DNA of 22,238 bases from a virus: positions 1 through 22,238 of the IMG/VR virus record IMGVR_UViG_3300007960_000227, one strand, 5' to 3'. Below the pieces are notes generated by a model. It saw only the letters and a program-made list of their open reading frames with translations, had not been told where the DNA came from and searched no databases. Both the position numbers and the translations under genes were made by a program. This document shows, one piece after another, positions 1 to 19,881 of the stretch (position 1 is its first letter; each line of letters begins with the position of its first letter).

Positions 1-189
1 GCGCTTCAGGTCCCGCAGCAGTTCGTCCTTCGACCGCTCGTCCTTGGTGTAGTGCTTGTGCGCCAGTGCCCCAGCGCTGCCTCCCGCGAGCGCCCCGAGG
101 GCCACGGTAGCTGGGGTCACCTTCGCGATCTTGACCAGCTCGCCCTGGAAGGCGCGGACGGTTGCGACGGAGAGGGTGGGCATGATCAT
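1..189 (-). CDS. Glycine-rich small protein with N-terminal EKxA-like motif, cut by window edge
   Basis: The reading frame starts at ATG 189-187 and is still open at base 1, so only about 63 N-terminal residues are visible. The start overlaps the stop of the upstream zinc-ribbon gene as ATGA, with GGGAG nine bases before it. A second ATG two codons later (183) is also possible. The N terminus holds Phe-Gln-Gly-Glu-Leu-Val-Lys-Ile-Ala, a variant of the F-x-x-E-L-E-K-x-A motif seen at the N termini of several other small proteins here. A small-residue hydrophobic segment rich in Gly and Ala follows (about residues 25-45), then a charged Lys/Asp/Glu/Arg stretch. This could be a membrane-active or internal virion protein; the function is unknown. 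Confidence 0.6.
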   Translation of the reverse strand, partial: MIMPTLSVATVRAFQGELVKIAKVTPATVALGALAGGSAGALAHKHYTKDERSKDELLRDLKR

Positions 190-1097
190 AGGCCAAGCTC
201 CCGCTTCGCTCGACGGTGACTGTCGAGGTTCGTAGCATTGATGTACTGCCTGTAGGGCGTGGCCGCCACCGGGTCGATGTCCCACTCGTCAGCCGAGATC
301 GGGATGTCGTACTCCACCTGGTCCTTGGACAGCTCGCGCACCTGCACGGTCTGTCGGGTGAGAGCCCACAGCTTCTCGTGCCGCTGAATGTCGATGACGC
401 GCCAGCGCCGCCCATCAGCATCGATGACCAGGTCACGCGGGACCACCCGTGGACGCGACGACATCCACAGGAGCGCGTCGTTGTTCTGCATCTCGAACAG
501 CGGGGTGAGCTGTACGGATGCCCGGTGGGGTACCTTGGCGGCCCAGGCCTGCTTGGGGAAGTAGTACCCCCCGGAGACCCCCACGCCGTAGCAGGTCAGG
601 CACTTGCTCTTGGTACGTCGCCTCTTCAAGTTGTCCCAACACTCGGCACAGCGCTGCCCAGTGGACCTGTGGTTGAGCACCAGGAGCTCCCGCCCGATCT
701 TGGTCTGCAGGAGCATGTCGAAACGCCGGATGGCCTCGAGGGCCACCAGGTCGGGCAAGCTCTCCAGCACGACGCCGCCGGCGTCGTCTCCAGCCAGGAC
801 CCTCTTGTAGTCCACCGAGCCGAAGTCCGTGGTCGAGCCATCGGGCGCCGTGACCCGCAGCCGGTAGAAATACTCCCGCCACTTGGAGTGCAGGACTACC
901 TCGGAGTCCACGAACTCCACGGTCGCGTCTGCCGCGAAGGCGCTCGAGATCTCCTCGTACCCTCCCGCAGCGGAACCAGACCGCAGCACCGTGATGCTGT
1001 AGTCGCCCAGCGCTGCCGTGGTGTTGCGGAACGCCCAGGAGATGGTCAGGGAGTCGCGGGAGAGGGTCCAGACCCGGATGTTGACGGGAACGAGCAT
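186..1097 (-). CDS. Probable neck or tail structural protein with fibronectin-like domain and zinc ribbon
   Basis: A 303-residue protein. Residues about 5-95 form an alternating beta pattern with the W, Y and L spacing of a fibronectin type III domain (ISW near 19-21, YFYRLRV near 76-82). A four-cysteine knuckle follows: C150-x2-C153 and C166-x2-C169, separated by a basic stretch, which would bind zinc. The C-terminal third is beta-rich with a GRRWRV segment (229-234). It lies at the downstream end of the head genes, where neck or early tail genes usually sit, and no EKxA motif was found in it. The ATG at 1097 has only a weak GGGG ribosome site; no better start was seen. Its virion role is inferred from position and domain type. 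Fibronectin domains are common on phage tails and capsids. Confidence 0.6.
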   Translation of the reverse strand: MLVPVNIRVWTLSRDSLTISWAFRNTTAALGDYSITVLRSGSAAGGYEEISSAFAADATVEFVDSEVVLHSKWREYFYRLRVTAPDGSTTDFGSVDYKRVLAGDDAGGVVLESLPDLVALEAIRRFDMLLQTKIGRELLVLNHRSTGQRCAECWDNLKRRRTKSKCLTCYGVGVSGGYYFPKQAWAAKVPHRASVQLTPLFEMQNNDALLWMSSRPRVVPRDLVIDADGRRWRVIDIQRHEKLWALTRQTVQVRELSKDQVEYDIPISADEWDIDPVAATPYRQYINATNLDSHRRAKRELGL

Positions 1098-1116
1098 GGC
1101 CCCATACTACCCCACG

Positions 1117-1605
1117 TCAGCTGACTGCGCCCCGCGCCAGCGCGGGGCGCGGCCCCGCACGGACCTCTTCCTTGGTGCTGCGACGCACCCACCCCTTCAG
1201 CTTGGTGGGCTTGGAGGTGGCGCGCTGGGATGCGGCGGGGGCTCCACGCGGGCGGATGGTCCAGGCGCGTGTCTGGTTGATCATCCCGGACGGATTGGGG
1301 CGCACTGCCTTCTCCCAACCACTACGGGCCACGCGGGTGGTGTTCTTCGTGACCACCTTGGCGAAGGACCGCTTCTCGAGGTCCTTGAGGAACTGCCGAG
1401 CGATGCGGTTGGTCTCCGCTTGGGAGGGCGGTGCCTCGAGGTAGCCGTTGCGCACGACCCCGGGCTGGTGCCCGGAGTTGGCCTTCACCCGGAAGCGACG
1501 TACGCGCTTCGGCGGCGTCTTGGGCTTGGCCCGCCGGAGGGTCTTGAGGAAGGCGATCTTCTCCAGCTCGGCGATGAAGGCATCCTGTAGCGGCGCAGAG
1601 AGCAT
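1117..1605 (-). CDS. Small basic protein with N-terminal FIAELEKIA motif
   Basis: A 162-residue, very basic protein rich in Arg and Lys, especially around residues 23-42 and 85-150. Near the N terminus (residues 10-18) it has F-I-A-E-L-E-K-I-A, one of the clearest copies of the motif shared by the head-block proteins; a degenerate LEKRS lies near residue 76. Its charge suits a DNA-binding internal head protein or a completion protein, but no domain was recognised. It lies between a glycine-rich small protein and the zinc-ribbon gene on the same strand, with gaps under 20 bases. A ten-base-pair GC hairpin sits in its last codons. Confidence 0.65.
   Translation of the reverse strand: MLSAPLQDAFIAELEKIAFLKTLRRAKPKTPPKRVRRFRVKANSGHQPGVVRNGYLEAPPSQAETNRIARQFLKDLEKRSFAKVVTKNTTRVARSGWEKAVRPNPSGMINQTRAWTIRPRGAPAASQRATSKPTKLKGWVRRSTKEEVRAGPRPALARGAVS
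1127..1150. repeat. Perfect 10-bp GC inverted repeat at a gene end
   Basis: GCGCCCCGCG at 1127-1136 and CGCGGGGCGC at 1141-1150 are perfect inverted repeats with the loop CCAG. They lie within the last coding codons of the basic protein on the minus strand, about 30 bases before the next start at 1097. No T run follows on either strand, so this is not a typical intrinsic terminator. It could slow ribosomes, stabilise an mRNA 3' end or be a rho-type pause site. Confidence 0.6.
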
Positions 1606-1612
1606 GGGTCAC

Positions 1613-2203
1613 CTACTTGGCGGCGGCGGGCACCTGCTGGGGAGCCGGGATCTTCTTGCGCAGCTTGACCGCCTTCTTGCCGGTGCGGCGCAGCAGGTTG
1701 CGCTGGGTCTCTCGCTGGGAACTCCGGGCCAGCTGGAACACGAACGCAGCGCCCCCCGGCTGCGCCGGACCGGCGACGGAGATAGCGACCTTCTCGACCG
1801 AGCCCTTCTTCTCCTTCTGCTCGGCGAGGGCTTCGCGCACGGCCTTCTTGGTGGCTTCCCGGTGCTTTGCCCGGCGCTCCTGGGCGTGCTTCTTGGCCAG
1901 GCGCCCGCCGGCGACGCCGCCCAGAGCCTCTCCAGTGAGGACGCCGAGAGCGGTCAGGGCCGAGATCTTCCCTCGCCCACGGCGTGCCTTCTTGGGGGTG
2001 TCGCGCGCCATCTGAGCGAGAGCGCCCGGGGTCGCGCCAGCCATGGCGCCCAAGATGCCTCCGGCACCTCCGTACAGCGCACCCTCGCCCCGGTTCCCTT
2101 GACCGGCAGCGACCGCTCCGGTGCCGGCACCGAGGAGGATGGCAACCTTCTCCAGCTCGGAGAAGAACCCGCGGGCGAGCTCGGGGGGCAAGGAGTGGCT
2201 CAT
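1613..2203 (-). CDS. Glycine-rich hydrophobic protein with two EKVA motifs
   Basis: A 196-residue protein. Residues 13-21 carry F-F-S-E-L-E-K-V-A, followed by a long Gly/Ala-rich hydrophobic region (about 22-60) that resembles a glycine-zipper membrane segment. A second small-residue hydrophobic segment lies near residues 80-103. A strongly basic and charged stretch follows (about 105-135), then a second motif copy (VEKVA, near 137-141) and a Lys/Pro-rich C terminus. The start lies just 3 bases after the upstream stop (TAG ATC ATG), suggesting translational coupling. The build of tag, glycine-rich hydrophobic segment and basic tail resembles other small proteins in this block and would suit an internal head protein ejected with DNA. 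That role is inference. Confidence 0.65.
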   Translation of the reverse strand: MSHSLPPELARGFFSELEKVAILLGAGTGAVAAGQGNRGEGALYGGAGGILGAMAGATPGALAQMARDTPKKARRGRGKISALTALGVLTGEALGGVAGGRLAKKHAQERRAKHREATKKAVREALAEQKEKKGSVEKVAISVAGPAQPGGAAFVFQLARSSQRETQRNLLRRTGKKAVKLRKKIPAPQQVPAAAK

Positions 2204-2206
2204 GAT

Positions 2207-2845
2207 CTACTCGCGTGGGACGGAGACCTGAACCGCCGGCTCCGCCTCCCGTTGAGGTTGGGTGGGGGCGCCGCCCTGCTGTTGCTGCTTCCAGGCCAGG
2301 TACTTGGCCTCGAGGGCCGTGCGGCGCGCTCGACGAACGGCCCAGCGGTTGGACACCGGCCTGGCCGCCTGCTTGGCTGCACGAGCAGCCTCCATCTCGG
2401 CGTCGCGCTTCTCCAGCTCGATGGCCTGCTGGTAGTAGGGCGACCCCTTGAAGGCGTCAGACCACTCGACGGGACCGCCACCCTCGACGCACTTGGCCAC
2501 GTGACCGCACAGGGCCGCGGTCTTGGCCAGCGAGGTGGCCTGCCCCTTGGAGAGCCCCATGTTCTGGTAGCGCCACTCCACGAGAGCGGCCTCCAGCTGG
2601 GCGATCTCGACTCGGAGAGCAGACTCGGCCGCGTGCGAGGACTCCTGCTCGACGTGCTCGCGGGCCTCCTGCGCCTCCTCGAGAGCCTCCTGGCGTTCGA
2701 TCTCCAGGGCCTCCCGGTAGAAGGGGGTGCCCTTGTAGCGATCAGACCAGGAGTACTCCCCAGGAGTCAGGGGGATGTTGCCGTAGATGCGAGCGACCTT
2801 CTCCAGGGTGCCCGCAACCCGGACGAAGGCGCCGGGGCGGTGCAC
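2207..2845 (-). CDS. Charged alpha-helical protein with duplicated WSDxxKGxPxY module
   Basis: A 212-residue protein, GTG start with a strong AGGAGG ribosome site. Residues 14-18 are LEKVA, followed by Arg-Ile-Tyr-Gly, recalling the IYG near the N termini of two neighbouring proteins. A module of about 33 residues occurs twice (31-63 and 127-159): W-S-D-x-(Y/F)-K-G-(T/S)-P-(F/Y)-Y, then a long Glu/Ala-rich helix. Between them lies a coiled-coil-like segment (about 64-95) and LAKTA (106-110). The C terminus is basic, then Gln/Pro-rich. No known family was recognised. It may be a head core or accessory structural protein, based on motif content and neighbours. Confidence 0.65.
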   Translation of the reverse strand: MHRPGAFVRVAGTLEKVARIYGNIPLTPGEYSWSDRYKGTPFYREALEIERQEALEEAQEAREHVEQESSHAAESALRVEIAQLEAALVEWRYQNMGLSKGQATSLAKTAALCGHVAKCVEGGGPVEWSDAFKGSPYYQQAIELEKRDAEMEAARAAKQAARPVSNRWAVRRARRTALEAKYLAWKQQQQGGAPTQPQREAEPAVQVSVPRE

Positions 2846-2854
2846 GCCGCCCTC

Positions 2855-3238
2855 CTACTGCAGGCCGGCGCGGCGCTGCAGCTCCGCGGCGATGGCTTCG
2901 CGCGCGGCGTGACGGGGGTCGGGCTCACCGCCGTCGTCGAACTCGACATCGGCGAAGAAGGCCTCGAGGGCCTCCGTGTCACCCGCGGCCGCCATCTTCT
3001 CCATCTCGGTGAACTCGTGGTGGGCCATGGCGCGTCCGGCGCGATCGAAGGACACCAGGTCGGCGAAGACCTCCTGGTGCGCCTCGGCGACCTTCTCCAT
3101 GTCCGCGCCGTCACCGAGACTGTCGACGACGATGACGGTGGCCAGGTCGTCGAGGGTCATCTGGCGGGTCGGGTCCACGGGGGAGGCGACCTTCTCCATG
3201 TCGCCGGTGCCGTAGATGCCTGCGAGCAGTTCGTTCAT
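2855..3238 (-). CDS. Small acidic head-block protein with three EKxA motifs
   Basis: A 127-residue protein. The ATG at 3238 is chosen because GGAGG lies six bases upstream; the frame extends further upstream, but that part has a poor codon pattern. The N terminus reads L-L-A-G-I-Y-G, then MEKVA (14-18). Further copies are MEKVA (47-51) and MEKMA (79-83). The last lies in a segment A-M-A-H-H-E-F-T-E-M-E-K-M-A that resembles segments in the 310-aa and 143-aa proteins of this window. The chain is acidic overall. It looks like a member of a small paralogous set, perhaps prohead core or other processed head proteins. The biochemical role is unknown. Confidence 0.7.
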   Translation of the reverse strand: MNELLAGIYGTGDMEKVASPVDPTRQMTLDDLATVIVVDSLGDGADMEKVAEAHQEVFADLVSFDRAGRAMAHHEFTEMEKMAAAGDTEALEAFFADVEFDDGGEPDPRHAAREAIAAELQRRAGLQ

Positions 3239-3308: not shown

Positions 3309-4241
3309 CTAGTCCAGCGCGGCCTTGGTGCCCGCGGCGAGTCCGCCAGCGGCGGCCAGGCCACCGCCGTAGACCGCGGCGCTCTGCCCGGCCTTCTTGT
3401 AGCCCTTGCGGCGCAGCTTGCGGGCTTCCTTCTTGGCGGCCTTGCCGGCCTTGTGGGCGTCGCGGCCGCGCTTGAAGGCATCGACGACGGCCTTGTCGTC
3501 GCCCTTGCCCGCCGCCTTGGCGGCGTCCTTGGCGGCGCTCTTGCGCGCCTTCAGGGCCTCCTCGGCCGTCTCGCCGGCCTTCCGGGAGCCCTTGAAGGCC
3601 TTCCGGGCGCCCTTGAACTTCAGGAGGCTGCCCAGCCCGCCGGCGGTCTTCTCCACCTGGGGCTCGTCGTCCTCGACGAACTCGTAGTGCTCCATGAGCT
3701 CCACGAGATCGGCGCCGGTGATCTTGCTCATGTCGATCTCGAGCTCGTCGGGCATCTGCTCGGAGGACAGCTTCTCCAGCTCGGAGGCGTAGCCGCGCGC
3801 CATCAGGGCCCCGGCGTCGAGCCAGTACTGCTGCTCGGCGGCGACCTTCTCCTGCTCCCCGGGGTCCTCGTTGAGCGAGTTGGCCAGCTCGATGAGCTCC
3901 TCGGCCGACATGCTCTCGAGCTGCTCCTGGGTGAGGCTGTCGAGGTCGAAGCCCGCGGTCTTCTCGGCCTCGGGATCGCTGCCGTCGTCGAACACGATCT
4001 CGCCGCTCTCGAGCCCCTGCAGGAGCTGGGTCGCGCTCATGTTGTCGAGGTCGAGCTCTCCCTCGTCGCCGGCGGTCTTCTCGGCCTCGGGCTCGTCCCC
4101 GTCGACGTAGACGATCTCGCCGCTCTCGATGCCGGCGAGGAAGTCGACGGCGCTCATGTTGTCGAGGTCGAGCTCCGTCTCCTGCTCGGAGGCGGTCTTG
4201 TCGAGGCCGTAGATGCGGGCGAGGACGTCGTGGATGGCCAT
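3309..4241 (-). CDS. Acidic repeat protein with tandem EKTAG-ended units and basic C terminus
   Basis: A 310-residue protein starting at ATG 4241 (GGAG six bases upstream). It opens with V-L-A-R-I-Y-G-L-D-K-T-A. Two tandem 39-residue acidic units follow (about 22-60 and 61-99), each with ELDLDNMSA, ESGEIV and a closing EAEKTAG; a diverged third unit spans about 166-202 and ends VEKTAG. Between them is a segment with MSAEELIELA (111-120), EKVAA (131-135) and a GALMARGYASELEKLS stretch (144-159), closely matched in the 143-aa protein. From residue 205 the chain becomes Lys/Arg/Ala-rich and ends in a Gly/Ala hydrophobic segment. If the repeated motif is a protease site, the acidic units would be released as peptides, leaving a basic fragment. 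That is inference; the repeats are seen directly. Confidence 0.75.
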   Translation of the reverse strand: MAIHDVLARIYGLDKTASEQETELDLDNMSAVDFLAGIESGEIVYVDGDEPEAEKTAGDEGELDLDNMSATQLLQGLESGEIVFDDGSDPEAEKTAGFDLDSLTQEQLESMSAEELIELANSLNEDPGEQEKVAAEQQYWLDAGALMARGYASELEKLSSEQMPDELEIDMSKITGADLVELMEHYEFVEDDEPQVEKTAGGLGSLLKFKGARKAFKGSRKAGETAEEALKARKSAAKDAAKAAGKGDDKAVVDAFKRGRDAHKAGKAAKKEARKLRRKGYKKAGQSAAVYGGGLAAAGGLAAGTKAALD

Positions 4242-4767: not shown

Positions 4768-4771
4768 AGGC

Positions 4772-5489: not shown

Positions 5490-6518
5490 CTAGTAGTGGC
5501 TGACCTGCGGGAAGGTCAGACCATCGTCGGCCTCGTTGTAGACCGTGGTGCCGACCTCATCCTCGGAGATCAGGACGTCGGTGGTGTCGTTGTAGAGCTC
5601 GAGCTTGGCCATGCTGGCGATGTTGCCGATGCCCATGCCGATGTCCTCCCAGGCCTGCCACATGACCAGGTTGTACACCTTGTCGATGTAGAACTTGGTG
5701 GCGTTCAGGATGAGGAACTTGCCGAGCCACTCGGGCGCGCAGAAGCCGTAGATGTTGCCGGTCTGGAGGATGTCCGTCTTGATGGTACGGATGATCTTCC
5801 GACCCATCAGGCGGTCGTAGGTGTAGCCGTCGACGGTCACCGAGGCCTGCTTGTCGCCGAAGTCCTCGATGGTCCAGTTCAGGACATCGTCCCAGTTCTC
5901 CTCGTTCATCAGCACCGTGGCCAGGCGGCGACGACGGGAGTCGAGCTCCTTGAACAGCAGGACCAGGTCGGCGCGCTCGAGGGTGCCGCGGAAGCCGGAG
6001 TTCAGCCCGTTGGCCTCGATATCGTCCTGGGCCTGGGTGCCCTTGACGATCTGCTCGGTGTTGGAGATGGCCGCATCGACGTAGACCAGGAAGCGGTAGT
6101 CCTCGATCTCCTGGATGTCCTTGACCGAGTTGTCCTCGATCACCCGGGTGATGGGCATCCGGTAGGCGAGGAGCTCCTGCTCCGTCTTCTCGAAGCGCTC
6201 GCTCGAGATGGTGAAGATGGGGATCTCGTAGCGGGAGGCGCGGATGTAGCGCGCGGTGGGCTGGCCGCGGAAGGTCAGCGACATGGCCCTGGAGTTGGGC
6301 TCGATCTCGTCGATGTAGACGAGGGTGTCGTGGTTCACGGACACCTGCATGTCGGCCTTGGTGACCATCTGGGGCGGGAGGATCTTGCGGGCGAAGCTGT
6401 TCTCGCGCAGCTTGTCACGCACGTAGGTACGGCCCACGGCCGCGAGCTTCTCCTTGCCCTCGGGGTGCTCCAGATGGGCCAGGAAGAGCTGGTTCAGGGT
6501 GGCAGCGTCGGTGCTCAT
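5490..6518 (-). CDS. Major capsid protein (HK97-fold type)
   Basis: A 342-residue protein that forms the capsid shell. Support comes from length, position (after protease, scaffold-like and decoration-like genes) and layout: an N-terminal arm, then an E-loop-like stretch near 60-100, a beta-rich ERFEKTEQELLAYR region, a conserved helix-rich middle (V-Y-V-D-A-A-I-S; LERADLVLLFKELDSRRR) and a C-terminal domain with YGFCAPEWLGKFLI. From memory this resembles major capsid proteins of large tailed phages. Residues 23-27 read E-K-L-A-A, a copy of the block-wide motif placed where an N-terminal propeptide would be removed. GGAG lies six bases before the ATG. Removing about 25 residues would be a short propeptide; cleavage itself is inference. 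Confidence 0.85.
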   Translation of the reverse strand: MSTDAATLNQLFLAHLEHPEGKEKLAAVGRTYVRDKLRENSFARKILPPQMVTKADMQVSVNHDTLVYIDEIEPNSRAMSLTFRGQPTARYIRASRYEIPIFTISSERFEKTEQELLAYRMPITRVIEDNSVKDIQEIEDYRFLVYVDAAISNTEQIVKGTQAQDDIEANGLNSGFRGTLERADLVLLFKELDSRRRRLATVLMNEENWDDVLNWTIEDFGDKQASVTVDGYTYDRLMGRKIIRTIKTDILQTGNIYGFCAPEWLGKFLILNATKFYIDKVYNLVMWQAWEDIGMGIGNIASMAKLELYNDTTDVLISEDEVGTTVYNEADDGLTFPQVSHY

Positions 6519-6568: not shown

Positions 6569-6603
6569 GGTCAAGCTGACGGGGAGCTACCCGTCAGCTG
6601 ACC
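6569..6603. repeat. 14-bp hairpin between decoration-like and major capsid genes
   Basis: GGTCA plus GCTGACGGG (6569-6583, with one bulged A at 6574) pairs with CCCGTCAGC plus TGACC (6590-6603) around a six-base loop. It includes the stop codon (6594-6596) of the upstream 156-aa gene and lies about 50 bases before the capsid start. No T run follows in the minus direction, so it is probably not a full terminator. It may be an mRNA stability, processing or attenuation element that sets the ratio of the two structural proteins. Confidence 0.65.
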
Positions 6604-7064
6604 CAGAGGTAGGCGGGGGAGCGACGGTACTTGATCAGCCCGCCGTTGTCGTCGGGGTCGGTGATGACCACGCCGTAGACGTACTCACCCGCGGCGGCCT
6701 GGGTGAGACCGGTGCGGAAGTCCTCGCCATCGACGTCGGAGAGGGTCTTCACGGTGAGCTTGGTGCCGGGGGCGAAGCCGGCGCCGCCGTCCTCGAACAT
6801 GTCGGTCTCGGCCTCGTACTCGTGCAGCTGGATCACGGCGATCTTGGAGATGGCCTGGGCGGCGGTGTCGCCCTTCTGGGTCCAGATCTGCATGGCGTCG
6901 GACACCGAGTCCGCGCCCACGCGCTCGAGGTTGCCGGAGGAATCGCGCACGAGCCACTCGCCCTGGTCGTAGGCCTCGGCCTCGGTCGGGTTGAGGTAGG
7001 TCTCGTCCGCCACGGGGATGTCGCGACGGAAGTTGTCGCTCACGGAGCTGATGAGGTTCAGCAT
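6594..7064 (-). CDS. Putative capsid decoration (head-stabilising) protein
   Basis: A 156-residue acidic protein immediately upstream of the major capsid gene, where tailed phages usually encode the capsid cement protein. The start has AGGAG six bases before it. The sequence is beta-rich: residues about 30-50 (EGEWLVRDSSGNLERVG-like pattern) and TKLTVKTL, plus a G-E-Y-V-Y-G-V-V-I segment, suggest a compact barrel. One ISKIA occurs near residues 72-76 but sits inside a strand and may be chance. The assignment rests on size, position and composition, with no conserved catalytic features. Confidence 0.6.
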   Translation of the reverse strand: MLNLISSVSDNFRRDIPVADETYLNPTEAEAYDQGEWLVRDSSGNLERVGADSVSDAMQIWTQKGDTAAQAISKIAVIQLHEYEAETDMFEDGGAGFAPGTKLTVKTLSDVDGEDFRTGLTQAAAGEYVYGVVITDPDDNGGLIKYRRSPAYLWVS

Positions 7065-7091: not shown

Positions 7092-7478
7092 CTAGTGGAC
7101 GATGCCACTGTTCGTGAGGAAGGAGGCGAACTTCTGCTCGGCGGCGCCCGGGACGACTCCGGAAGCGCCGTCGCCGTCGGCAGCCTCCTTGGTGAGTTCG
7201 CCCAGGGGGAGTCCAGCGGCGGCGTGGCTGACCAGTTCCTCGACGTCATCGAGGTTCCGGGAGCCGGAAGCGAGGGTCTGCGCGTACTCGGCCTGCGCGT
7301 CCTCGGCCACGATGCCGCGCTCGACCGCCACGCTGGCGATCTTGACGGCGTGCTCGCGCCGGTCCTTCTTGGCGAGCTGAGCACGCAGCTGCTCGTTCTC
7401 GGCGGAGAGGTCGCGGATGGCGGCGGCGGACTTGATGAGGAGCCCGTTGAGCTCGGCGGATCCGATCTTGGTGAGCAT
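7092..7478 (-). CDS. Coiled-coil head-block protein
   Basis: A 128-residue protein whose ATG overlaps the upstream stop by one base (TGATG), so it is probably coupled to the gene before it. Residues about 18-42 form a heptad-like coiled coil (IRDLSAENEQLRAQLAKK). Weak motif-like sites are LIKSA (14-18), VKIAS (45-49) and LTKEA. The C terminus is Gly/Ala-rich and ends in a hydrophobic F-A-S-F-L-T-N segment. With the preceding disordered protein, it sits between protease and capsid, the usual place for scaffold and core proteins. A scaffold partner role is possible but unproven. Confidence 0.6.
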   Translation of the reverse strand: MLTKIGSAELNGLLIKSAAAIRDLSAENEQLRAQLAKKDRREHAVKIASVAVERGIVAEDAQAEYAQTLASGSRNLDDVEELVSHAAAGLPLGELTKEAADGDGASGVVPGAAEQKFASFLTNSGIVH

Positions 7479-8167
7479 CAGGCCTGCCCTCCGTCGTTGA
7501 CGCGGCGCGCGAGCTCTTCGCGCACCTGCTCGAGGTTGACCCCCGGGGGGAGCTGGGGAGCGGCCTCGTCCGAGGCGGTCTTGGCCTTGCCCGCGTTGAT
7601 GTTGCGCTCGCCGGCCTTGCCCGCGTTGCGCAGGTTCTCCTTCACCTTGGGGTCCGCGAAGGGGGTGGCGGAGAGCAGCTTGGAGAGCGCGGGGGCGACG
7701 AGCTTGGCCTTGTCGGCCTTGGTGACGCCGATGGCGGCTTCGTTGCTCTTGAGGCCGGGGTGGCTGGCGCCCTTCTGGGTGCTCGAGGTGTCGGGCGAGG
7801 GGGCGTTGCCGCCCGGGCGCTGGTGCTCGTTGTCGTCGGGAGCACCCGTGGCCTTGGGCTTCATGGGAGGAGCGCCCTTGTGCGGCTGCACCTGGGACTG
7901 CTTCTTCTCGCCGTGCGTCTGCCCGGCGTTGGTGCCCGCGGGCGGCGCGGCGGCGCTGGCGTCCTTCTCGAGCACCAGCAGGGACTCGACACCGCGGGTA
8001 CCGACGAACTCCAGCGCGCTGGCGAGCTTGCTCAGCTCACCGTGGTCGATGCTCGCACCGGAAGAGGCGGGGGGAGCCGCCTGCACTTCGGGAGTGGTCG
8101 GGGCCGACTGCTCGGCCTCTTCCGCGTCCCCGATGGCCTGACGGATCATGTCGTTCAGAGAGAGCAT
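7478..8167 (-). CDS. Disordered Pro/Ala-rich scaffold candidate
   Basis: A 229-residue protein; the start at ATG 8167 is preferred because GAGGA lies eight bases upstream and the frame before it is codon-poor. A short N-terminal helix (1-20) precedes LSKLAS (46-51) and LEKDAS (66-71). Residues about 70-145 are low-complexity Pro, Ala, Gly, Ser and Lys, probably disordered. The C-terminal part holds N-A-G-K-A-G-E-R-N-I-N-A-G-K-A-K-T-A-S and a final charged helix. Its place between the protease and the capsid gene suits a scaffold, and the KTAS site would allow processing. There is no sequence-level proof. Confidence 0.55.
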   Translation of the reverse strand: MLSLNDMIRQAIGDAEEAEQSAPTTPEVQAAPPASSGASIDHGELSKLASALEFVGTRGVESLLVLEKDASAAAPPAGTNAGQTHGEKKQSQVQPHKGAPPMKPKATGAPDDNEHQRPGGNAPSPDTSSTQKGASHPGLKSNEAAIGVTKADKAKLVAPALSKLLSATPFADPKVKENLRNAGKAGERNINAGKAKTASDEAAPQLPPGVNLEQVREELARRVNDGGQA

Positions 8168-8183: not shown

Positions 8184-8483
8184 TCACGCACGCACCAAGG
8201 TATCACCTCGGAGCGGGGTTGGTACAGTCTTGATCCCGCGAGCGGGGTCGATCTTGGCGCCAAGCCGTCCCGTGCTGGGGGTCTTGACCGCCTTGCTGCT
8301 CATTCCCCGCGGCGGTCGAGGCATCGGAGGCTGGTGCTTGATTCCCAGGCCGCGCGCCGACGAAGTTCGCACACCAGCACCGCTGTTCCCAGACGGCAGG
8401 GTCATGCCCAGGCCGACTTGAGGGACGTTCTTGGTGGCGGTGTTGGCCAACTTCTCGAGCTCCGTGGCGAAGGATTCCAGCAT
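8184..8483 (-). CDS. Small basic protein with N-terminal FATELEKLA motif
   Basis: A 99-residue protein whose N terminus (residues 5-13) is F-A-T-E-L-E-K-L-A, a clear copy of the N-terminal motif. The rest is basic and rich in Pro, Gly and Ser (P-M-P-R-P-P-R-G near the middle), probably disordered. No clear ribosome site was found, but the ATG lies only 4 bases after the upstream stop (TAG CGCT ATG), suggesting re-initiation. It may be a small internal or core component of the prohead. No family was recognised. Confidence 0.6.
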   Translation of the reverse strand: MLESFATELEKLANTATKNVPQVGLGMTLPSGNSGAGVRTSSARGLGIKHQPPMPRPPRGMSSKAVKTPSTGRLGAKIDPARGIKTVPTPLRGDTLVRA

Positions 8484-8487
8484 AGCG

Positions 8488-8919
8488 CTATTCGGCGCTG
8501 TCTGCCTCGGCGTGGCAGGCGCTGCAGATGGAGCTGCCCTGGATGTCCATGGCGTTCTCCTTGCACACGCGGCACTTGCCGTTGATCATGGCGACCTTCA
8601 TGAGCCCCAGCTCGTGGGTGAAGGCGTGGGCCATCAGCTGCCCGCCGAAGGTGTCGTAGGCCACCTTCTCGAGCTCGGAGGTGTCCTCGGGCTCCGCCGC
8701 GGCCGGCTGGGCGGAGGCCGTCTTCTCGGTGCCCTCGTCGGCCTCGAGCTGCGTGGCCAGGGCGATGAGCTCGGCGGTGCTCATGTCGCGCAGCGCGCCG
8801 GCGGTCTGTCCGGACTGCCCCAGCTGCTCGAGCATGGCCGCCTCGGCGGTCTTCTCGAGGGGGCTCACCCGCTGGTCGGAGTTGTAGATGGAGTCCAGGA
8901 GGGAGGCCATGTCGCTCAT
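8488..8919 (-). CDS. Head-block protein with four EKxA-type motifs and C-terminal zinc knuckle
   Basis: A 143-residue protein; ATG 8919 overlaps the protease stop (ATGA) and has GAGGA upstream. The N terminus is S-L-L-D-S-I-Y-N, then LEKTA (21-25). MSTAELIALA (46-55) and TEKTAS (64-69) follow, then LEKVA (83-87), a GGQLMAHAFTHEL segment (92-104) and LMKVA (106-110). This order matches the central part of the 310-aa acidic repeat protein, and the MAH segment also matches the 127-aa protein. The end carries C116-x2-C119 and C132-x2-C135, a likely zinc knuckle. It looks like one of three related processed head proteins; the zinc part could bind DNA or RNA. Function is inferred from context only. 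Confidence 0.7.
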   Translation of the reverse strand: MSDMASLLDSIYNSDQRVSPLEKTAEAAMLEQLGQSGQTAGALRDMSTAELIALATQLEADEGTEKTASAQPAAAEPEDTSELEKVAYDTFGGQLMAHAFTHELGLMKVAMINGKCRVCKENAMDIQGSSICSACHAEADSAE

Positions 8920-10601
8920 GAGAGATCCTCGATTCCGAGCAGTGCCCGTGCGGCTGTGTGTGGAGGTAGTACCCGATCCCACGAAGAAGGAACACCACCG
9001 CGATCACGGTGCGCAGCCGTAAGGTATACCGATACGGGGGGCGGAGACAACCCCTTCTCGGTACTCCCCGACGCGAGCTTCTCCCAGGAGTTCTCGAAGA
9101 GTTCTCCCAGATAGTGCTCCCGGTAGAAGGCCGGGTCGTTGTCGATAGCCTGCGGTAGCAGGCCTGGAAGGTAGACAAGTGCCTTCCTGTAGGCGTCGTA
9201 GGCCTCCGCAACCTTCTGCAGAGGTGGCGTGTTCTCGACCTGCTCTCGCTTGGGCGGGAGCTTGGGAGACTTCACCACGACGAGCTGCAACGAGCGCGCG
9301 GGAAGGTGCGGATGGAAGGCAGACCGGGACGCCAGCAAGGACGCCAACAGGCGCGCGAGGTTCGGACTGTAGCTCTCGCAGCTCAGGCGAAGCGCACTCT
9401 CGGAGGTAGCCGGCGTGAACACCTGGCGCTTCGCGCTCAGCTGGGACGCCAGGTCACCCAGGCCCGCGCCTGTGAGCGCTCCGTGCTGGAACTCGTGTGG
9501 CTTGAGCACGATCCCCAGCAGCGCCAGCGTGTTGACGAGCTGCTCGAAGTCGCCCCCCAACAGGCCGGTTGGAATGTCGGGTTCGCGCGCAGTCAGGCGC
9601 TCCACATTCGGGCCAGCGTTGGGGAGGATCTCCTTGGTCACTTCGGCGCTCTTGGCAGCTTCGGCCTGCTTGTCGTGCGCCACCTTGACCAGCACGCCTT
9701 CGCGCGTCACCTCGATGGCGTCCGCTGGCGGCCGCGTACCAATGCGCTCGAAGTAGGAGTGCGGCACGAAGAAGCGGGTCCCTGCCGCCGAGGCCACCTT
9801 GAGCAGTACCCCGGACTCCTTCGCTGCCGGAACGAAGACGTCCGAGAGGTCGAAGAAGCGGGGGAAGAGGTTGACCATGCCGACGATCCGCCCGTCAGGC
9901 AGGATCTGTGCCCGCTGCGTGAGCAGGCACTCGCAGTAGTCGCGCGTGGTCTTCGAGATGGAGCCGCACTTGGTGCAGACGTCGAAGGGAACCTTGCACC
10001 CCATCGAGATCTGGCGAGGCTTGCGCTCGTCGATGTCGTCGATGACATCCTGCGCCCCCACCTTCTTGGCCATCTCCCGGTCGTGCCGGACGATGACCTC
10101 CACGCGGTGCATCGCGGGGTTGTAGACCGCCACCACGATGTCCCCGTAGGCGATCTCGGGGTTCTTGTTGACGTGGTGCAGGTAGCGCTTGGCGTTCAGG
10201 AACGTCTTGTGCCCGAACTCGTGGTAGTTGCCCGGGGGGAGGCGTCGCCCGTGCGGGGTCACCCAGCGTGCCTCGAGGCGCCTGATGACGTCTCGGGGGT
10301 TCTGCTTGAGGTGGTCGTGCGCCAGCGCGATCTCGGGGAAGATGTCCCCGTTGACGTTCATCCCCCAGTACTCGTAGGCCCCCAGCGGGGTCATGAGCAC
10401 GAACTGGTAGGCCGGATCCGGCCGCAGCTGCTTCAGGTAGGCGTCGATCTCGGGATGCAGCTCGCGCACGCCGGCGATCTTCTCCAGGCCCCCACCGCCC
10501 GCGCGCGTGACGTCGACCGCCTCGGCGAAGCACCGCCCCAGCGGATCGGAGCCGCCGACGGTGACGGGAAGCGTCTTGGGGATGCCTGGGAAGTCGGACA
10601 T
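8916..10601 (-). CDS. Prohead maturation protease with long C-terminal extension
   Basis: A 561-residue protein. The first half resembles prohead proteases of the assemblin-like serine type, which cut scaffold and capsid precursors inside the prohead: MNVNGDIFPE (81-90), a histidine region GHKTFLNAKRYLHHVN (130-145), a GDIVVAVYNP strand (153-162) and I-S-M-G (198-201), whose Ser199 is the likely nucleophile. H142 or H143 is the likely catalytic histidine, from family layout. A cysteine cluster (C202, C209, C212, C223, C225) follows the serine and may bind zinc. The protein carries motif copies LEKIAG (39-44), LLKVAS (267-271), LVKVA (304-308), LQKVA (461-465) and WEKLAS (506-511), so it may process itself. 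The last 250 residues were not recognised. The start follows the upstream stop by three bases. Confidence 0.8.
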   Translation of the reverse strand: MSDFPGIPKTLPVTVGGSDPLGRCFAEAVDVTRAGGGGLEKIAGVRELHPEIDAYLKQLRPDPAYQFVLMTPLGAYEYWGMNVNGDIFPEIALAHDHLKQNPRDVIRRLEARWVTPHGRRLPPGNYHEFGHKTFLNAKRYLHHVNKNPEIAYGDIVVAVYNPAMHRVEVIVRHDREMAKKVGAQDVIDDIDERKPRQISMGCKVPFDVCTKCGSISKTTRDYCECLLTQRAQILPDGRIVGMVNLFPRFFDLSDVFVPAAKESGVLLKVASAAGTRFFVPHSYFERIGTRPPADAIEVTREGVLVKVAHDKQAEAAKSAEVTKEILPNAGPNVERLTAREPDIPTGLLGGDFEQLVNTLALLGIVLKPHEFQHGALTGAGLGDLASQLSAKRQVFTPATSESALRLSCESYSPNLARLLASLLASRSAFHPHLPARSLQLVVVKSPKLPPKREQVENTPPLQKVAEAYDAYRKALVYLPGLLPQAIDNDPAFYREHYLGELFENSWEKLASGSTEKGLSPPPVSVYLTAAHRDRGGVPSSWDRVLPPHTAARALLGIEDLS

Positions 10602-10604: not shown

Positions 10605-11213
10605 TCAGCCAGGGAACGGCGGCATCGCGATCATCTTGCCGCTGTCCGTCACCTTGCGCAGGAAGGGGTAGCGCGTCTCCTGAGCGGCCCGCTCGGTGTC
10701 GAGGATGCTCTTCACCTTCCGCTCGTCGATGGCCGCGGAGTCGACCATGGAGCGCACGGTAGCCGCGGCGATGACCGGCTCGCTTGCCAGGTAGGGGCTG
10801 GCCCGATGGAGCACGCGGAAGTAGGCCTGGGTGTGGGGCGTGTTGTCCAGCGACGGATCGGCCTTGAGCATGGCCTGGTAGTCCGTCCCCATGCGGTTCT
10901 TCCGCATCTTGTCCATCACCCGGCCCACGCCGTGCCCCGCCAGCTGCTGCCCAGCGCCGAGCCCGGTACCGAGCGCCGCCAGGCCGAGCACGGTGAGTGC
11001 CCAGCGCCCCACGCTCATCTTGGCCTTCCGCTTGCCCTGCTTGGCTCCCTCCTGGGCCGCTTGCCCAGCCGCGGCCCCGACGCCACTTCCAGACCCGAGC
11101 AGCAGGCTCTTGGGGAGGCGGAAGGGCCCCGCGGTCTTCTCCAGCGGGCGAGCGGAGAGGATGGACCTCACCGCCATGGCTCGTTGCAGGTCGCTTTCGT
11201 AGATGTGGCTCAC
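10605..11213 (-). CDS. Head-block protein with LEKTAG motif and one membrane-like segment
   Basis: A 202-residue protein. GTG 11213 overlaps the upstream stop (GTGA) and has AGGAGG five bases before it. Residues 24-29 are LEKTAG. A Gly/Ser/Ala stretch and a basic patch (KQGKRKAKMS, 58-67) lead into a hydrophobic segment of about 20 residues (W-A-L-T-V-L-G-L-A-A-L-G, 71-82), then basic residues. The C-terminal half (112-165), with DP, YFRVLHRASPYLASEP and AAATVRSMV, is the pattern of a small helical family that I have seen in other phage head blocks, from memory. It sits directly before the protease. A membrane-active or internal protein is possible; the function is unknown. Confidence 0.6.
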   Translation of the reverse strand: MSHIYESDLQRAMAVRSILSARPLEKTAGPFRLPKSLLLGSGSGVGAAAGQAAQEGAKQGKRKAKMSVGRWALTVLGLAALGTGLGAGQQLAGHGVGRVMDKMRKNRMGTDYQAMLKADPSLDNTPHTQAYFRVLHRASPYLASEPVIAAATVRSMVDSAAIDERKVKSILDTERAAQETRYPFLRKVTDSGKMIAMPPFPG

Positions 11214-11755
11214 GTCGGCCTCCTGACTTGCCCCATGTATCGCTTGGTAGCCGTTCTCGCTTGTGCGGTCCCTCGTCGGAGCGCACTGGCGCCGTGCCCA
11301 GCTCCGGCGTAGGCGAAGTAGCCCGTCATCGCGGCGCCGAGGGGCTGCTTGCGGATGACCGTCCCCGCGGTACGGGCGACTCCCTTGGTGACCGCCTTCG
11401 TGCCCTGCCACACGGCCTTGGCCGGAACACCCACGAGCATCCTGGCAGGCGTGCGCAAGGCGCGGCCTACGCCCTCGCCGCCAGCTTGGATGCCCCCGCC
11501 GATGCCGCCCACACGGACCGTCGACGGACCTCCGATGAAGGGAAGCTTCCCGAGCTTCCCCCCGATGCCGGGCGTCTGAACTTCCTTGCCGCTCCAGAGC
11601 ATGTCCAGCGCCTTGTTGAAGCGCTTGGCTCCGGGCCGCGACGATTCAGCCGCCCCCCGCCAGTGGCTTCGGTACTGCCCGAACCACGAGTCGGCCGTCG
11701 CGTCTGCGATCTTCTCCAGCTCCTGCTGGAACGCCAGGGCGAGCACCACGTTCAT
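11210..11755 (-). CDS. Basic glycine-rich protein with N-terminal FQQELEKIA motif
   Basis: A 181-residue protein. The ATG shares one base with the upstream stop (TGATG) and follows AGGACGG. Residues 9-17 are F-Q-Q-E-L-E-K-I-A. The middle (about 60-135) is Gly/Val/Ala-rich with G-I-G-G-K-L-G-K-L, and the C terminus is basic. It shares its build with the other small basic or glycine-rich proteins of the block: tag, then small-residue region, then basic tail. An internal head protein is the working idea. No enzyme motif is visible. Confidence 0.6.
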   Translation of the reverse strand: MNVVLALAFQQELEKIADATADSWFGQYRSHWRGAAESSRPGAKRFNKALDMLWSGKEVQTPGIGGKLGKLPFIGGPSTVRVGGIGGGIQAGGEGVGRALRTPARMLVGVPAKAVWQGTKAVTKGVARTAGTVIRKQPLGAAMTGYFAYAGAGHGASALRRGTAQARTATKRYMGQVRRPT

Positions 11756-12639
11756 CAGGCCGTCCTGAGCTTGTCCCGCAGGTAGTCTCCGGAGAGCTTG
11801 CGGGCGTCGGCGGCCTGCTGGGCCGCGCTGCGCGCCACCCGAGCCGCATGCGCGGTCTTCTCGAGAGAGGCGTAGGTGGTCAGGATGGGGTGCTCGGTAT
11901 CGACCGTGACCGCCATCGCGAGCTTCTGCATCTCGCTGGCGCGGTTGATGATCACCCCGTTGCGCTGAAGACGCTGGGCCACCTTCTCCATGGCCGCCCG
12001 AGCGAAGGGGGGCTCCTCGCAGATCTCACCGACGGCGCCGGCGATCTGGAGGATGCCGTGCCCGTGCTGCAGGTGCGCCTGCTTGACCAGCTCGTAGAAG
12101 GTGTCCTCGAGGCGCCCCACCTCGATCTCCAGCCGGTCCGCGTCAGAGCGCAGGAAGCCTTCCGCCGCAGCCGTCTTGGTGTGCAGCGCCGCCGCCCCGG
12201 CCGCGGGGTTGAGCTCGGGGTACTCGTCCTGGGAGGCCGTCTTGTCCACCCCGAAGGCCTCCTCCAGAGAGACATCCGACGGCAGCTGCTCCCCCACCGG
12301 GGGCTCCAGGAAGTCCATGCTCTGCTGAAGGGGAGCCGGCGAAGCCTCGGGCTGCTGGATCACCTCGTCGATCTTGGCCGGGGAGAATTCGATGTTGGGG
12401 TCCTGCTCACCCTCGTGGAACAGTCCGCGCCAGGCAGCCTGGTTTGCGGCCTGGGTGACGCGCTCCACCTGGTCACGGTTCAGCGATTCCTCGCCGACCA
12501 CGCTCCGCACAGCCGCACTCAGCGAGTCCGCCTCCTTGGTCATGAAGCGACTGGCCGCTCGCTTGCCCAACAGGGAGAGATGCTCGGAGGTAGTCCCGCC
12601 GGTGGTGCCCTCGGCGAGCTTGGTGAGGAAGTCCTGCAT
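11755..12639 (-). CDS. Helical head-block protein with about seven EKxA-type motifs
   Basis: A 294-residue protein and the first gene of the head block, next to a divergent promoter region. It starts M-Q-D-F-L-T-K-L-A and has the segment H-L-S-L-L-G-K-R-A-A near 20-29, followed by SAAVRSVVGEESLNRDQVERV (41-61, broken in motif here only for display). From memory, such helical N termini occur in conserved proteins near head genes of large phages. Motif copies: LTKLA (5-9), MTKEA (33-37), VDKTAS (131-136), HTKTA (153-157), MEKVA (217-221), MQKLA (237-241), LEKTA (259-263). The central part is acidic, Pro/Gln-rich and probably disordered. It may be a core or scaffolding protein, or a virion component processed by the protease. 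No portal features were seen. Confidence 0.65.
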   Translation of the reverse strand: MQDFLTKLAEGTTGGTTSEHLSLLGKRAASRFMTKEADSLSAAVRSVVGEESLNRDQVERVTQAANQAAWRGLFHEGEQDPNIEFSPAKIDEVIQQPEASPAPLQQSMDFLEPPVGEQLPSDVSLEEAFGVDKTASQDEYPELNPAAGAAALHTKTAAAEGFLRSDADRLEIEVGRLEDTFYELVKQAHLQHGHGILQIAGAVGEICEEPPFARAAMEKVAQRLQRNGVIINRASEMQKLAMAVTVDTEHPILTTYASLEKTAHAARVARSAAQQAADARKLSGDYLRDKLRTA

Positions 12640-16602: not shown

Positions 16603-17017
16603 CGGTGAGCTCCCGGGCCTTGTTGTTGACGAACTCGAAGACCGTCGTGGTGAGGAACTGGTCTGCCATGGGCTTACCGGCCCATCCTATCACGCGGACG
16701 TAGAAGCTGGGCATCGGGACGAAGATGGCCTTGTCCGATCGCATCAGCTCGTTGCGGGCGCAGTCCACCTTGTCGAAGAACTCCGCAGCGACCTGCGCGG
16801 ACTCGGGTAGGACCTCCTTGAACCCGTCCTCGAGGATCCGGTGGAAGTTGGGGCAGAACGCATCGCGCCCCTCTGCCGGCCAGAAGTGGTAGATGAAGTC
16901 CTTCCCCTGCACGACGTACTCGACGTGAAGCGTCTCGTAGTCGCGGTGGGTGAAGGTGAGGGCGAGAGGGCTACGAACCCTCGATGAGGCGTAGGTGTCC
17001 GCGCTCGTTGGGCACAT
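16502..17017 (-). CDS. Unrecognised protein, C-terminal end uncertain
   Basis: A 171-residue reading from ATG 17017, which has AGGGAG six bases upstream and overlaps the end of the 246-aa gene by 47 bases. The body (about 20-135) looks real: F-T-H-R-D-Y-E-T-L, F-I-Y-H-F-W-P-A, V-D-C-A-R-N-E-L, I-F-V-P-M-P-S-F-Y-V-R-V-I-G-W. After about residue 140 it enters the 132-aa gene in a different frame, and becomes an arginine-rich tail with poor codon third positions. The tail may be real only as overlap, or the true end may involve a frameshift or sequence error. No function was recognised. Confidence 0.5.
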   Translation of the reverse strand: MCPTSADTYASSRVRSPLALTFTHRDYETLHVEYVVQGKDFIYHFWPAEGRDAFCPNFHRILEDGFKEVLPESAQVAAEFFDKVDCARNELMRSDKAIFVPMPSFYVRVIGWAGKPMADQFLTTTVFEFVNNKARELTDDHQPEVRQLQGADPGPQRAADRRRHRRRPRRR

Positions 17018-17711: not shown

Positions 17712-17723
17712 ACTCCCCAACCC

Positions 17724-17855
17724 CTAGGCCATCTCACGCAGCACGTCCTCGTTCGGAGGTACCAGCTCCCGCGCCGTGCAGGCCTGCTGCACGTCGTAGA
17801 CGGTCATCTTCTTGGTCAGAAGGTAGACCAAGTAGAGGCGGTGGGGGTACTTCAA
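17724..17855 (-). CDS. Possible 43-aa small protein with TTG start
   Basis: A 43-residue reading between the 672-aa gene and the 246-aa gene. It starts at TTG 17855 with a weak TAGG site and ends in TAG at 17724-17726. It contains H-R-L-Y-L-V-Y-L-L and V-Y-D-V-Q-Q-A-C-T-A-R, and codon third positions are mostly G or C, suggesting a real gene. The next gene is in the same frame only two codons later. It may be a small phage protein, or an in-frame N-terminal part of the next one separated by an amber stop. Confidence 0.4.
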   Translation of the reverse strand: MKYPHRLYLVYLLTKKMTVYDVQQACTARELVPPNEDVLREMA

Positions 17856-17862
17856 GGGCGGC

Positions 17863-19881
17863 CTACTGGGTCTTGGCCCTCAGCTCGTGCAGTCCGTCGA
17901 GGACCTCGTCCACGTTCCTCAGCGCGTTGCGCGCCGCCTGTTCCCGTACGTCGTCCATGCCGAGCCTGGACGCCACCAGGATCTCGGCCAGCTTGCTGGA
18001 GACCTTCTCCAGCTGGGGGATGGCGTCCACGTAGGCCTGCACGTTCTCGGGGGTCACGAAGTTGAGCGAGAGGATGGCGTCCGCCGTCTCGCGGTCGATG
18101 ATGACAGAGGCATGCTTGGAGAGCGAGGAGTGCTCGGACGGCTGACGCCGCAGAACGGCCAGCTCGGGCACCAGGTTCCGCTGCAGCCCGCGGTCCACCT
18201 CGCGGAAGGCCGAGGCGACCTTCATCATGGTGCGCGCCTTCAGCTCGGTCTCCTTGACCACGGGGCGCGTGTGGGGCACCGTCACGGGGGCTTGGGCCGA
18301 CGCTGCCTTCTCGATGAAGTGCCGGGCGCTGCTTCCCCGGACGCCCAAGGCGCCGAGGGCGAACTCGGCCCCGGACTCGGAGAGGAACTGCCCGTGGAAG
18401 GACGCCGCGTTCTGCCCGCGCAGGGAGAAGGCGGCGCCGTCGGAGAGCAGCTCCACGGAGTCCACGCCGGCGACCTTGAGCATCTCACGCCCGTCCACGT
18501 CGCGTGGATCCTCCGCCACGCCCACCTGGGAGCCCCGCAGCGGCACGAAGACGAAGGAGTCGGGCACGGCCACCTCGGCTCCCCCGAGGGCCGCGATCTT
18601 GTCGATGCCCGGGACCAGCGTGATGCGCACCGGCTGGCCGGACCCGAGGCGGACTGCCTGCAGCGACGCGGTCTTGGTCTTGCCGTCACCGACCGGGAGC
18701 TCGTACTCGTGCTGGATGTCCACCGGCTCGGTGGCGATGGCCTGACGCCCGACCTGGTACACGAAGACCCCGCGGCCGCGGGGGTGCGCCCCCTGAAGCG
18801 TGAGGTCGGCTTCGAACACGCCGGCGACCTTCTCCTGAAGCGCGTGCTCGTTCCCGCCCAGGAACATGTGCCCGCTCATCGGGACTCCCTCGATGGACAT
18901 CACCGCGGGGACCACCACACCCTGCACTTCCTTCCCCCCAGCGTAGGTCGTGTAGACCCCCACGCGATCAGCGACCTGGGCCACCTTGACCTTGGACGCC
19001 GTATCCACCGCGTCGGTGGCGAAGGTGACGAAGCCGCGCTCGCGCAGCACCTTCATGCTCTCGCCCGAGAGCATCGACTCGGCCTCGAAGCGCGTGATCT
19101 CGTTCTCCACGGGAGCGAAGCAGGCGTGGTTGGCCGTCTTGACCTTGTAGCCCATCCCGTGCTCCCGGAGCTGGACCACCGTGGGGCGGGTCAGCGCGCG
19201 CCGCAGCTGCCCGACCTCGGCCGCGGTCTTCTCCTTGGCCGTGGTGAGGGACAGGAGGGACTGCCGCATCTCCCCATCCTGCAGGAGCGCCGCGCGCACC
19301 GGGGTGTCCTCGCGGAGCTGGGCCCTGAACCGCTCCACGTCGGCTGCACGGAGCGTCGAAGCCACCTTCTCCAGCAGCACGGAGCCCGTCTTGATGACCG
19401 AGCTGGCATCGGGCGACCCCTGATTCGTCGGGGGCTGCATCTGGCTGCCGATGTCGGTGCCCTTGAACCTGTCGGGCTTGGCCGTGCCGGCGAACACGTC
19501 GGGGTTCTGCAGAGCACTGGCCACCTTCTCCTCGTTGACCGAGTGCGCGTCCCCCTTGTGGAACATCACGTCCAGGGGAGCCACTTCCCGCTCCCGGACG
19601 ACCAGGGGGAAGATGAGCAGCTGCTTGTTGCTGGCCGCCGCCTTCTTGGTCATGCCCGGAGGGTAGGCCATGAGCTTGCCGATAGCGTAGCCCCGGGCCT
19701 CGTCGACGCGCTCGAGAGCGACATCGATCTGGGTCTGGTGCAGGTACGGGAGCTGGGAGTAGGCCCCCTTGGTGATCTCCGTGGGCCACTCGTCGGCATC
19801 GCCCTCCAGCTTGAGGCCGAAGCCGCTGGCGCGCTTCTCGAGCTTGATCTCAGCGGAGTGGAAGAGGGGCTGGTGAGACAT
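17863..19881 (-). CDS. Large protein with about fourteen EKxA-type motifs
   Basis: A 672-residue protein; the ATG at 19881 has AGGAG seven bases upstream. No known domain was recognised. The first 100 residues include Y-P-P-G-M-T-K-K and an A-P-L-D-V-M-F-H-K-G segment, and residues about 310-510 are beta-rich. Motif copies lie near residues 15-19 (EKRAS), 118-122, 171-175, 217-221, 246-250, 298-301, 350-354, 402-406, 427-431, 468-472, 524-528, 553-557, 588-592 and 625-629. Four successive sites (alanines 250, 301, 353, 405) are 51-52 residues apart. It is surrounded by tail-side genes without the motif. It may be a virion protein tied to the prohead pathway, or a substrate or carrier of the motif. 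Function unknown. Confidence 0.6.
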   Translation of the reverse strand: MSHQPLFHSAEIKLEKRASGFGLKLEGDADEWPTEITKGAYSQLPYLHQTQIDVALERVDEARGYAIGKLMAYPPGMTKKAAASNKQLLIFPLVVREREVAPLDVMFHKGDAHSVNEEKVASALQNPDVFAGTAKPDRFKGTDIGSQMQPPTNQGSPDASSVIKTGSVLLEKVASTLRAADVERFRAQLREDTPVRAALLQDGEMRQSLLSLTTAKEKTAAEVGQLRRALTRPTVVQLREHGMGYKVKTANHACFAPVENEITRFEAESMLSGESMKVLRERGFVTFATDAVDTASKVKVAQVADRVGVYTTYAGGKEVQGVVVPAVMSIEGVPMSGHMFLGGNEHALQEKVAGVFEADLTLQGAHPRGRGVFVYQVGRQAIATEPVDIQHEYELPVGDGKTKTASLQAVRLGSGQPVRITLVPGIDKIAALGGAEVAVPDSFVFVPLRGSQVGVAEDPRDVDGREMLKVAGVDSVELLSDGAAFSLRGQNAASFHGQFLSESGAEFALGALGVRGSSARHFIEKAASAQAPVTVPHTRPVVKETELKARTMMKVASAFREVDRGLQRNLVPELAVLRRQPSEHSSLSKHASVIIDRETADAILSLNFVTPENVQAYVDAIPQLEKVSSKLAEILVASRLGMDDVREQAARNALRNVDEVLDGLHELRAKTQ

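Follow-up and report, generated by a model that had tools for sequence, protein, structure and literature searches.

Locus and motif

The window analysed here is a whole 22,238-base virus record (IMG/VR IMGVR_UViG_3300007960_000227), and matches a stretch of a 110,689-base IMG/VR contig at 99.9% identity. It encodes a large terminase, a major capsid protein (phrog_2522; 5490..6518, minus strand) and a 561-aa probable capsid maturation protease (8916..10601, minus strand), and many of its head-block proteins share a short motif in which Lys and Ala enclose a single variable residue. Motif copies were counted in a set of 30 hand-curated window proteins, whose starts are uncertain. Of ten window proteins, none received a Pfam assignment above the cut-offs.

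There are 26 copies of the strict form EK[VTILM]A, carried by 13 of the 30 proteins, whereas 5000 shuffles gave 0.89 on average and never more than 5. For the looser K[VTILM]A we found 49 copies in 18 proteins (shuffled mean 11.8, maximum 27) and, tested protein by protein, 7 of the 18 carriers had P < 0.05. Single copies in a 226-aa protein (21106-21786; P = 0.07) and a 156-aa protein (6594-7064; P = 0.14) are compatible with chance. The motif was absent from the terminase, from the two plus-strand genes counted and from most tail-side proteins. A sequence-only reading of this DNA had already reported the motif in many minus-strand proteins, including residues 23-27 of the major capsid protein, the protease and an acidic repeat protein, and its lack in the terminase and plus-strand genes. 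All this held: the protease has five copies (residues 41, 268, 306, 463 and 508) and the acidic repeat protein six (five K[VTILM]A and one LEKLS), and the shuffled controls that it had proposed place the motif well above chance. Lys and Ala were also rightly described as constant, but variation among V/T/I/L (once M) is confined to the one residue between them; Glu precedes Lys in 26 of the 49 copies.

A repeat at the DNA level was considered as the cause and rejected. Motif Lys is always AAG in the window, but Ala is encoded by four codons, the other positions vary as well, and the motif is kept in relatives of 45-59% GC, so that a DNA repeat does not explain it.

Enrichment in the head block of related phages

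An IMG/VR pattern search matched 220 stretches, 215 of them with capsid relatives, and the best 80 loci were kept. In the annotated collection, the capsid protein matched four phage records, Salmonella phage Arash and Vibrio phages D69, D181 and D148. Bacillus phage G was linked through its protease and through a solved capsid protein (entry 6wkk, listed as Gp27; E 2.6e-4), taken to be that of phage G as judged from phage G gene gp27. Genes of the relatives were called by a codon-usage method, and some calls in a 67% GC contig may be wrong.

The comparison with related phages, also suggested by the sequence-only reading, extended the enrichment to seven relatives. For (L,M,I,V,F)-x-K-(V,T,I,L)-A, with expected values in brackets, we observed 23 (2.6) in the head block and 2 (3.0) in the rest of the close relative G002, 17 (1.9) and 24 (16.0) in G007, 16 (1.6) and 23 (15.0) in G009, 10 (1.8) and 16 (14.5) in G015, 13 (1.5) and 20 (17.5) in Arash, and 9 (1.5) and 18 (15.6) in D69. 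The first 24 kb of phage G gave 16 (2.6), the next 26 kb, to which that comparison was limited, 2 (2.2); genome-wide, phage G has 52 copies versus 41.6 expected away from N termini, a figure that includes the head block, and 15 versus 6.2 at N termini. Enrichment is thus seen in the head block, and elsewhere it is weak or absent. Under the added condition that a small residue or Glu follows Ala, counts outside the head block of G007 and G009 were 12 versus 5.4 and 13 versus 4.6, above all 300 shuffles; this excess arises partly because N-terminal leaders, described below, lie elsewhere in those genomes.

An unbiased scan of gapped residue triples ranked EK.A first in G002 (35 versus 6.0). Related triples (K.AS, L.K.A, EK.A) were among the 14 listed for G009, G015 and Arash; in G007 only K.A.A and K.AA of the related triples were among those listed, and in D69 none of these five. 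In 112 head proteins, K[VTIL]A was found 230 times versus 54.9 expected, whereas the permuted forms A[VTIL]K, KA[VTIL], [VTIL]KA, [VTIL]AK and AK[VTIL] stayed at chance (43-56 versus 53.5-55.4). The statistics on the 112 head proteins, and those on the 230 sites in the next section, were made on head proteins other than capsid proteins, with 16 of the 30 window proteins.

Residues surrounding the motif

The 230 head sites share the consensus (L/M)-E-K-(V/T/I/L)-A-S-A. Before Lys, Glu is enriched 4.4-fold at the first place and Leu and Met 3.0-fold at the second; after Ala, Ser is enriched 4.0-fold, followed by Ala (2.6-fold). Directly after the motif Ala, Leu occurs 3 times versus 19.5 expected and Pro 3 times versus 10.8. 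This profile distinguishes head sites from the others in the seven relatives' genomes: Ser follows Ala in 62 of 230 head sites (27%) versus 45 of 492 elsewhere (9%; p = 2e-9), and Leu or Pro in 6 of 230 versus 44 of 492 (p = 0.0014). At the place after Ala, the preferences are those of the far side of a cleavage site. This pattern gives indirect support to cleavage, and the cut would probably fall after Ala, between Ala and Ser.

The 561-aa probable protease

The AF2 model of the 561-aa protein comprises a disordered N terminus, a well-predicted domain (residues 47-270), a disordered linker (272-331) and a helical C-terminal part. A Foldseek search against the PDB gave no significant match for this model, MCE-type proteins being mostly on top. 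In a second look with VIA-align, covering 795 aligned chains from Foldseek's own list, the best match was T4 gp21 (5jbl; Z 9.6, rmsd 2.8 over 131 residues, model residues 59-258), followed by the proteases of VZV (1vzv; Z 8.3) and PRV (4v08; Z 8.0); further herpesvirus rows (Z 5.2-6.9) overlap unrelated MCE-domain rows (Z 5.0-6.0). Matches in BFVD started from E 1.1e-6 and included phage G gp19, many annotated prohead proteases and proteins labelled COG3740 phage head maturation protease. A herpesvirus/T4-gp21-type fold is therefore probable for the modelled domain. S199 and H143, candidate catalytic residues, are invariant in 28 aligned protease sequences. Between the protease and capsid genes lie three to seven annotated or predicted genes, in the window as well as in Arash, D69 and phage G.

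In the same alignment, motif copies flank the domain as self-cleavage sites would. At its N-terminal border (LEKIA, residues 39-43; 10473..10487, minus strand), K[VTILM]A is present at residue 41 in 21 of the 28 proteases, and Lys itself in all 28. At its C-terminal border (LLKVA, residues 266-270; 9792..9806, minus strand), it is present at residue 268 in 25 of 28, Arash, D69 and phage G included. Inside the domain (residues 45-260) it occurs just three times in the 28 proteases; the domain zone of this count ended at 262, and copies at residue 261 were not counted as inside. The variable linker, in contrast, holds 32 copies versus 5.2 expected and the C-terminal part 35 versus 9.8.

The protease genes of relatives (L056, L059, L060, L070 and L081) carry large inserts with LAGLIDADG and Hint-type or intein-splicing domains, and the proteases of G013, G014 and G015 have a gap near a conserved S-M-G-C stretch. 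The inserts would be inteins in a capsid protease, possibly at its active site.

Core and multi-site proteins

Several minus-strand genes of the window encode proteins with repeated sites. The 294-aa acidic, core/scaffold-like protein (11755..12639), mostly helical in its model, has six. Its family, in 31 aligned members, has 140 copies versus 22.1 expected, spread over 36 alignment columns, and no mostly filled column has the motif in more than 18 of the 31. Judging from how freely copies shift position in this family, selection acts on the motif itself.

Other window carriers, all on the minus strand, are a 672-aa protein with eleven K[VTILM]A sites (17863..19881), a 212-aa protein with sites at residues 16 and 108 (2207..2845), a 229-aa protein with two (7478..8167), a 128-aa protein encoded between the protease and capsid genes with a site at residue 46 (7092..7478), and a protein of about 204 aa, of uncertain start, with the single site LEKTAG (10605..11219). 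Six of nine multi-site window proteins are net negative, down to -28. Among the acidic ones, also minus-strand, are a 127-aa protein (2855..3238; net -18) with three MEK[VM]A sites, a 143-aa protein (8488..8919; net -15) with four, and a 310-aa protein (3309..4241) whose acidic stretches have K-T-A or K-V-A at their ends; residues 1-200 of the latter have net charge -47 and its basic 110-aa tail +19. The acidic stretches before this tail are possibly a mask to be cut off.

Acidic multi-site proteins also show a second N-terminal leader type, approximately L-x-x-I-Y-(G) ... K-(V/T)-A. It was seen in these three window proteins (2855-3238, 3309-4241 and 8488-8919) and in G002 (41766-42971), and reads MNELLAGIYGTGDMEKVAS in the 127-aa protein.

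The N-terminal leader

A longer form of the motif lies close to the start of another group of proteins. In the window, five minus-strand genes encode such leaders: FQGELVKIA in a small protein cut by the window end (1..189), FIAELEKIA in a 162-aa protein (1117..1605; body net +29), FFSELEKVA in a 196-aa protein with a second site at residue 138 (1613..2203; body net +24), FATELEKLA in a 99-aa protein (8184..8483; body net +12) and FQQELEKIA in a 181-aa protein (11210..11755; body net +20). Their bodies range from net +12 to +29, the truncated one having +3.

The leader form F-x-D-E-L-x-K-I-A was searched as [FLMYIVW]..E[LMFI].K[ILVTM]A among 2060 de-duplicated proteins; in 31 of them, versus 0.30 expected, it begins at one of residues 1-25. 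It lies wholly in the first 70 residues of 37 proteins, which fall into 29 clusters (BLAST E 1e-3). Upstream residues stand at fixed places, Phe in 22 and Asp in 18 of the 37; Glu is demanded by the pattern itself. Bodies of 29 leader proteins (70-420 aa) are basic, with a median net charge of +0.082 per residue versus -0.017 for 1589 others (p = 5e-14, some leader proteins being homologous to each other). The leader carriers are probably DNA-binding and would be internal head proteins.

Leader proteins of G007 and G009, which are mutual homologues, have DUF5661 and InPase domains, and one also has a C92 peptidase domain. InPase is a phage-type polyvalent domain described as likely packaged in the virion (PMC5512222, accessible part).

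In phage G (L143, L145-L167), several small proteins begin with a motif of R-L-x-K-(T/L/I)-A type.

A probable protease site with a proposed targeting form

We consider it probable that the motif is a protease recognition site whose N-terminal extended form also targets proteins to the capsid. According to this model, (L/M)-E-K-(V/T/I/L)-A-(S/A/G) would be recognised by the phage group's own capsid maturation protease and cut most likely after Ala. The protease (8916-10601) would cut on both sides of its domain, freeing itself; it could then chop the multi-site core and scaffold-like proteins and trim the short leaders off internal head proteins. The F-x-D-E-L-x-K-(I/V/L)-A leader would bring otherwise unrelated, mostly basic and probably DNA-binding proteins into the prohead before being removed. 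Cutting, the bond cut and targeting are what we infer from the bracketing of the protease domain, the residue after Ala and the N-terminal form. The sequence-only reading had proposed a protease site or, alternatively, a prohead tag; the same three features give indirect and partial support to both at once.

A number of observations weigh against this model. Mycobacterium phage ET08, which has a related protease, was not enriched (3 versus 2.5 expected in the 45 kb examined). In the protease, K-(T/I)-A occurs at residue 261, just inside the domain border, in 14 of the 28 sequences; phage G, Arash and D69 keep Lys at the N-terminal border without K[VTILM]A; and two of the five modelled sites lie in helices, site 268 being in the last strand. 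All six sites of the 294-aa protein were likewise assigned to helix, four with high confidence and two in poorly predicted stretches. K[DEGNPQ]A, intended as a control, was itself mildly raised in the 112 head proteins (115 versus 75.3). The leader is present on only four of the 13 InPase matches (in 12 of 28 records; the start of L192 is uncertain), and those four are homologous to each other.

Virion data add to these points. Arash virions hold the motif proteins gp220, gp222, gp225 and gp242, but the accessible part of this report (PMC10585845), the sole virion proteome found, gives coverage and no cut ends. By the same partly available source, most spectra in Arash virions come from gp206, the beta subunit of RNA polymerase. 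Neither it nor the beta' subunit gp216 has a leader, so that packaging does not always need one.

The copy in the major capsid protein (6438-6452, minus strand) is probably incidental. It lies in a conserved N-arm and looks like any other run of conserved residues: its Lys is kept in 81 of 86 sequences, and Glu follows the copy in 67 of 84. In Arash, D69 and phage G the homologous arm has lost K-(V/T/I/L)-A. For these reasons we rejected it as a sign of a cut and regard it as weak evidence.

In a simpler scheme, the motif would be a protease site only, the leader being a site plus helper residues, and other parts of the proteins would direct packaging. Internal and N-terminal copies have the core L-E-K-x-A in common, and some virion proteins have no leader at all, in keeping with this scheme; the N-terminal copies, however, share extra upstream residues (Phe and Asp) and stand close to the protein start. 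We regard this as a minority possibility, if a serious one. Conversely, the motif could be a targeting tag only, which binds a head component (the core or the C-terminal part of the protease) and is never cut. The strong leader form on mostly unrelated proteins would fit such a tag, as would copies in predicted helices and the high virion coverage of Arash motif proteins (95.77% for gp220 and 100% for gp242; PMC10585845, accessible part). A tag would leave unexplained why copies stand at both borders of the protease domain and so rarely inside it, why Ser is enriched and Leu and Pro depleted directly after Ala, and why one protein can hold up to eleven copies, and we find it rather unlikely. 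Finally, Lys- and Ala-rich amphipathic helices or shared descent might have produced repeated KxA by coincidence, as the sites in predicted helices, the raised K[DEGNPQ]A and a major capsid copy explained by descent would allow, yet composition-preserving shuffles, permuted motifs, turnover over 36 alignment columns and 29 clusters among 37 leader proteins make this highly improbable.

Relation to known systems

A capsid-protease site with a targeting leader is a known kind of system, of which the present one would be a variant. A literature search found no description of such a motif or leader, most subscription papers being outside the search.

Part of the likeness to T4 draws on the charges of T4 internal and core proteins. 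Basic leader proteins and acidic multi-site proteins resemble the division of labour between the two in T4 (roles: PMC5694885, accessible part). According to the same source, T4 internal head proteins have N-terminal leaders of 10-20 residues, core proteins are cut into pieces, and the sites end in Glu. As with the T4 capsid targeting sequence and gp21, a short N-terminal leader is found here on unrelated proteins, whose internal location is presumed, and gp21 is the best structural match of the protease domain; unlike in T4, Lys and Ala are invariant here and the cut would likely follow Ala. The prohead proteases SPN3US gp245 and phiKZ gp175 also cut after Glu (A-X-E in SPN3US) and, as far as the available parts of the sources go, they cut themselves, and several SPN3US propeptides exceed 100 residues. 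One short motif common to many head proteins is again the shared trait, whereas the present motif ends in K-x-A-(S/A/G). In this respect the sequence-only reading was right that the site differs from those of T4 and phiKZ-type phages, which end in Glu.

Sites of the herpesvirus assemblin (UL26) end in Ala with Ser or Thr next, as in YLQA-T and VQA-S of PrV, both predicted in that source (PMC4498786, accessible part). The modelled fold is similar, and Ala followed by Ser is the sequence preference seen here, where the same bond may be cut. Assemblin is released from its C-terminal part, and the phage protease domain is likewise flanked by motif copies. The third residue before the cut is hydrophobic in assemblin, in contrast to Lys here if the cut follows Ala. 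HK97 gp4, which we take to belong to COG3740, is also a phage head maturation protease, and BFVD matches of the 561-aa protein bear that label. Only the capsid protein is known to us to be cut by it, and we know of no motif shared by many head proteins in HK97.

Taken further, the data could describe a code readable from sequence: one protease signature running through the head proteins of phage G, Arash, D69 and many uncultured relatives and, in the uncultured relatives, a portable F-x-D-E-L-x-K-(I/V/L)-A leader that directs basic DNA-binding proteins and polyvalent effectors into the prohead, to be removed by a herpesvirus-type Ala|Ser protease. We give this wider proposal about even chances. 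Were it true, sequence alone would suffice to list, by their leader, the proteins that uncultured phages package and inject; the head cargo of large phages has so far been found mostly by mass spectrometry of cultured virions. The leader might also serve as a tag with which to load proteins into large heads. If a phage protease does have herpesvirus-like Ala|Ser sites, this would be relevant to the common ancestry of capsid maturation in phages and herpesviruses; such a specificity could predate the Glu-cutting proteases of T4 and phiKZ.

Two further carriers were noticed on the 110-kb contig. Outside the window, a 380-aa protein (L086:17875-19017) has six K[VTILM]A sites and no Pfam or PHROGs match. 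A predicted DNA helicase of this contig (L084:6372-8147) has the motif at residue 8 and may be packaged.

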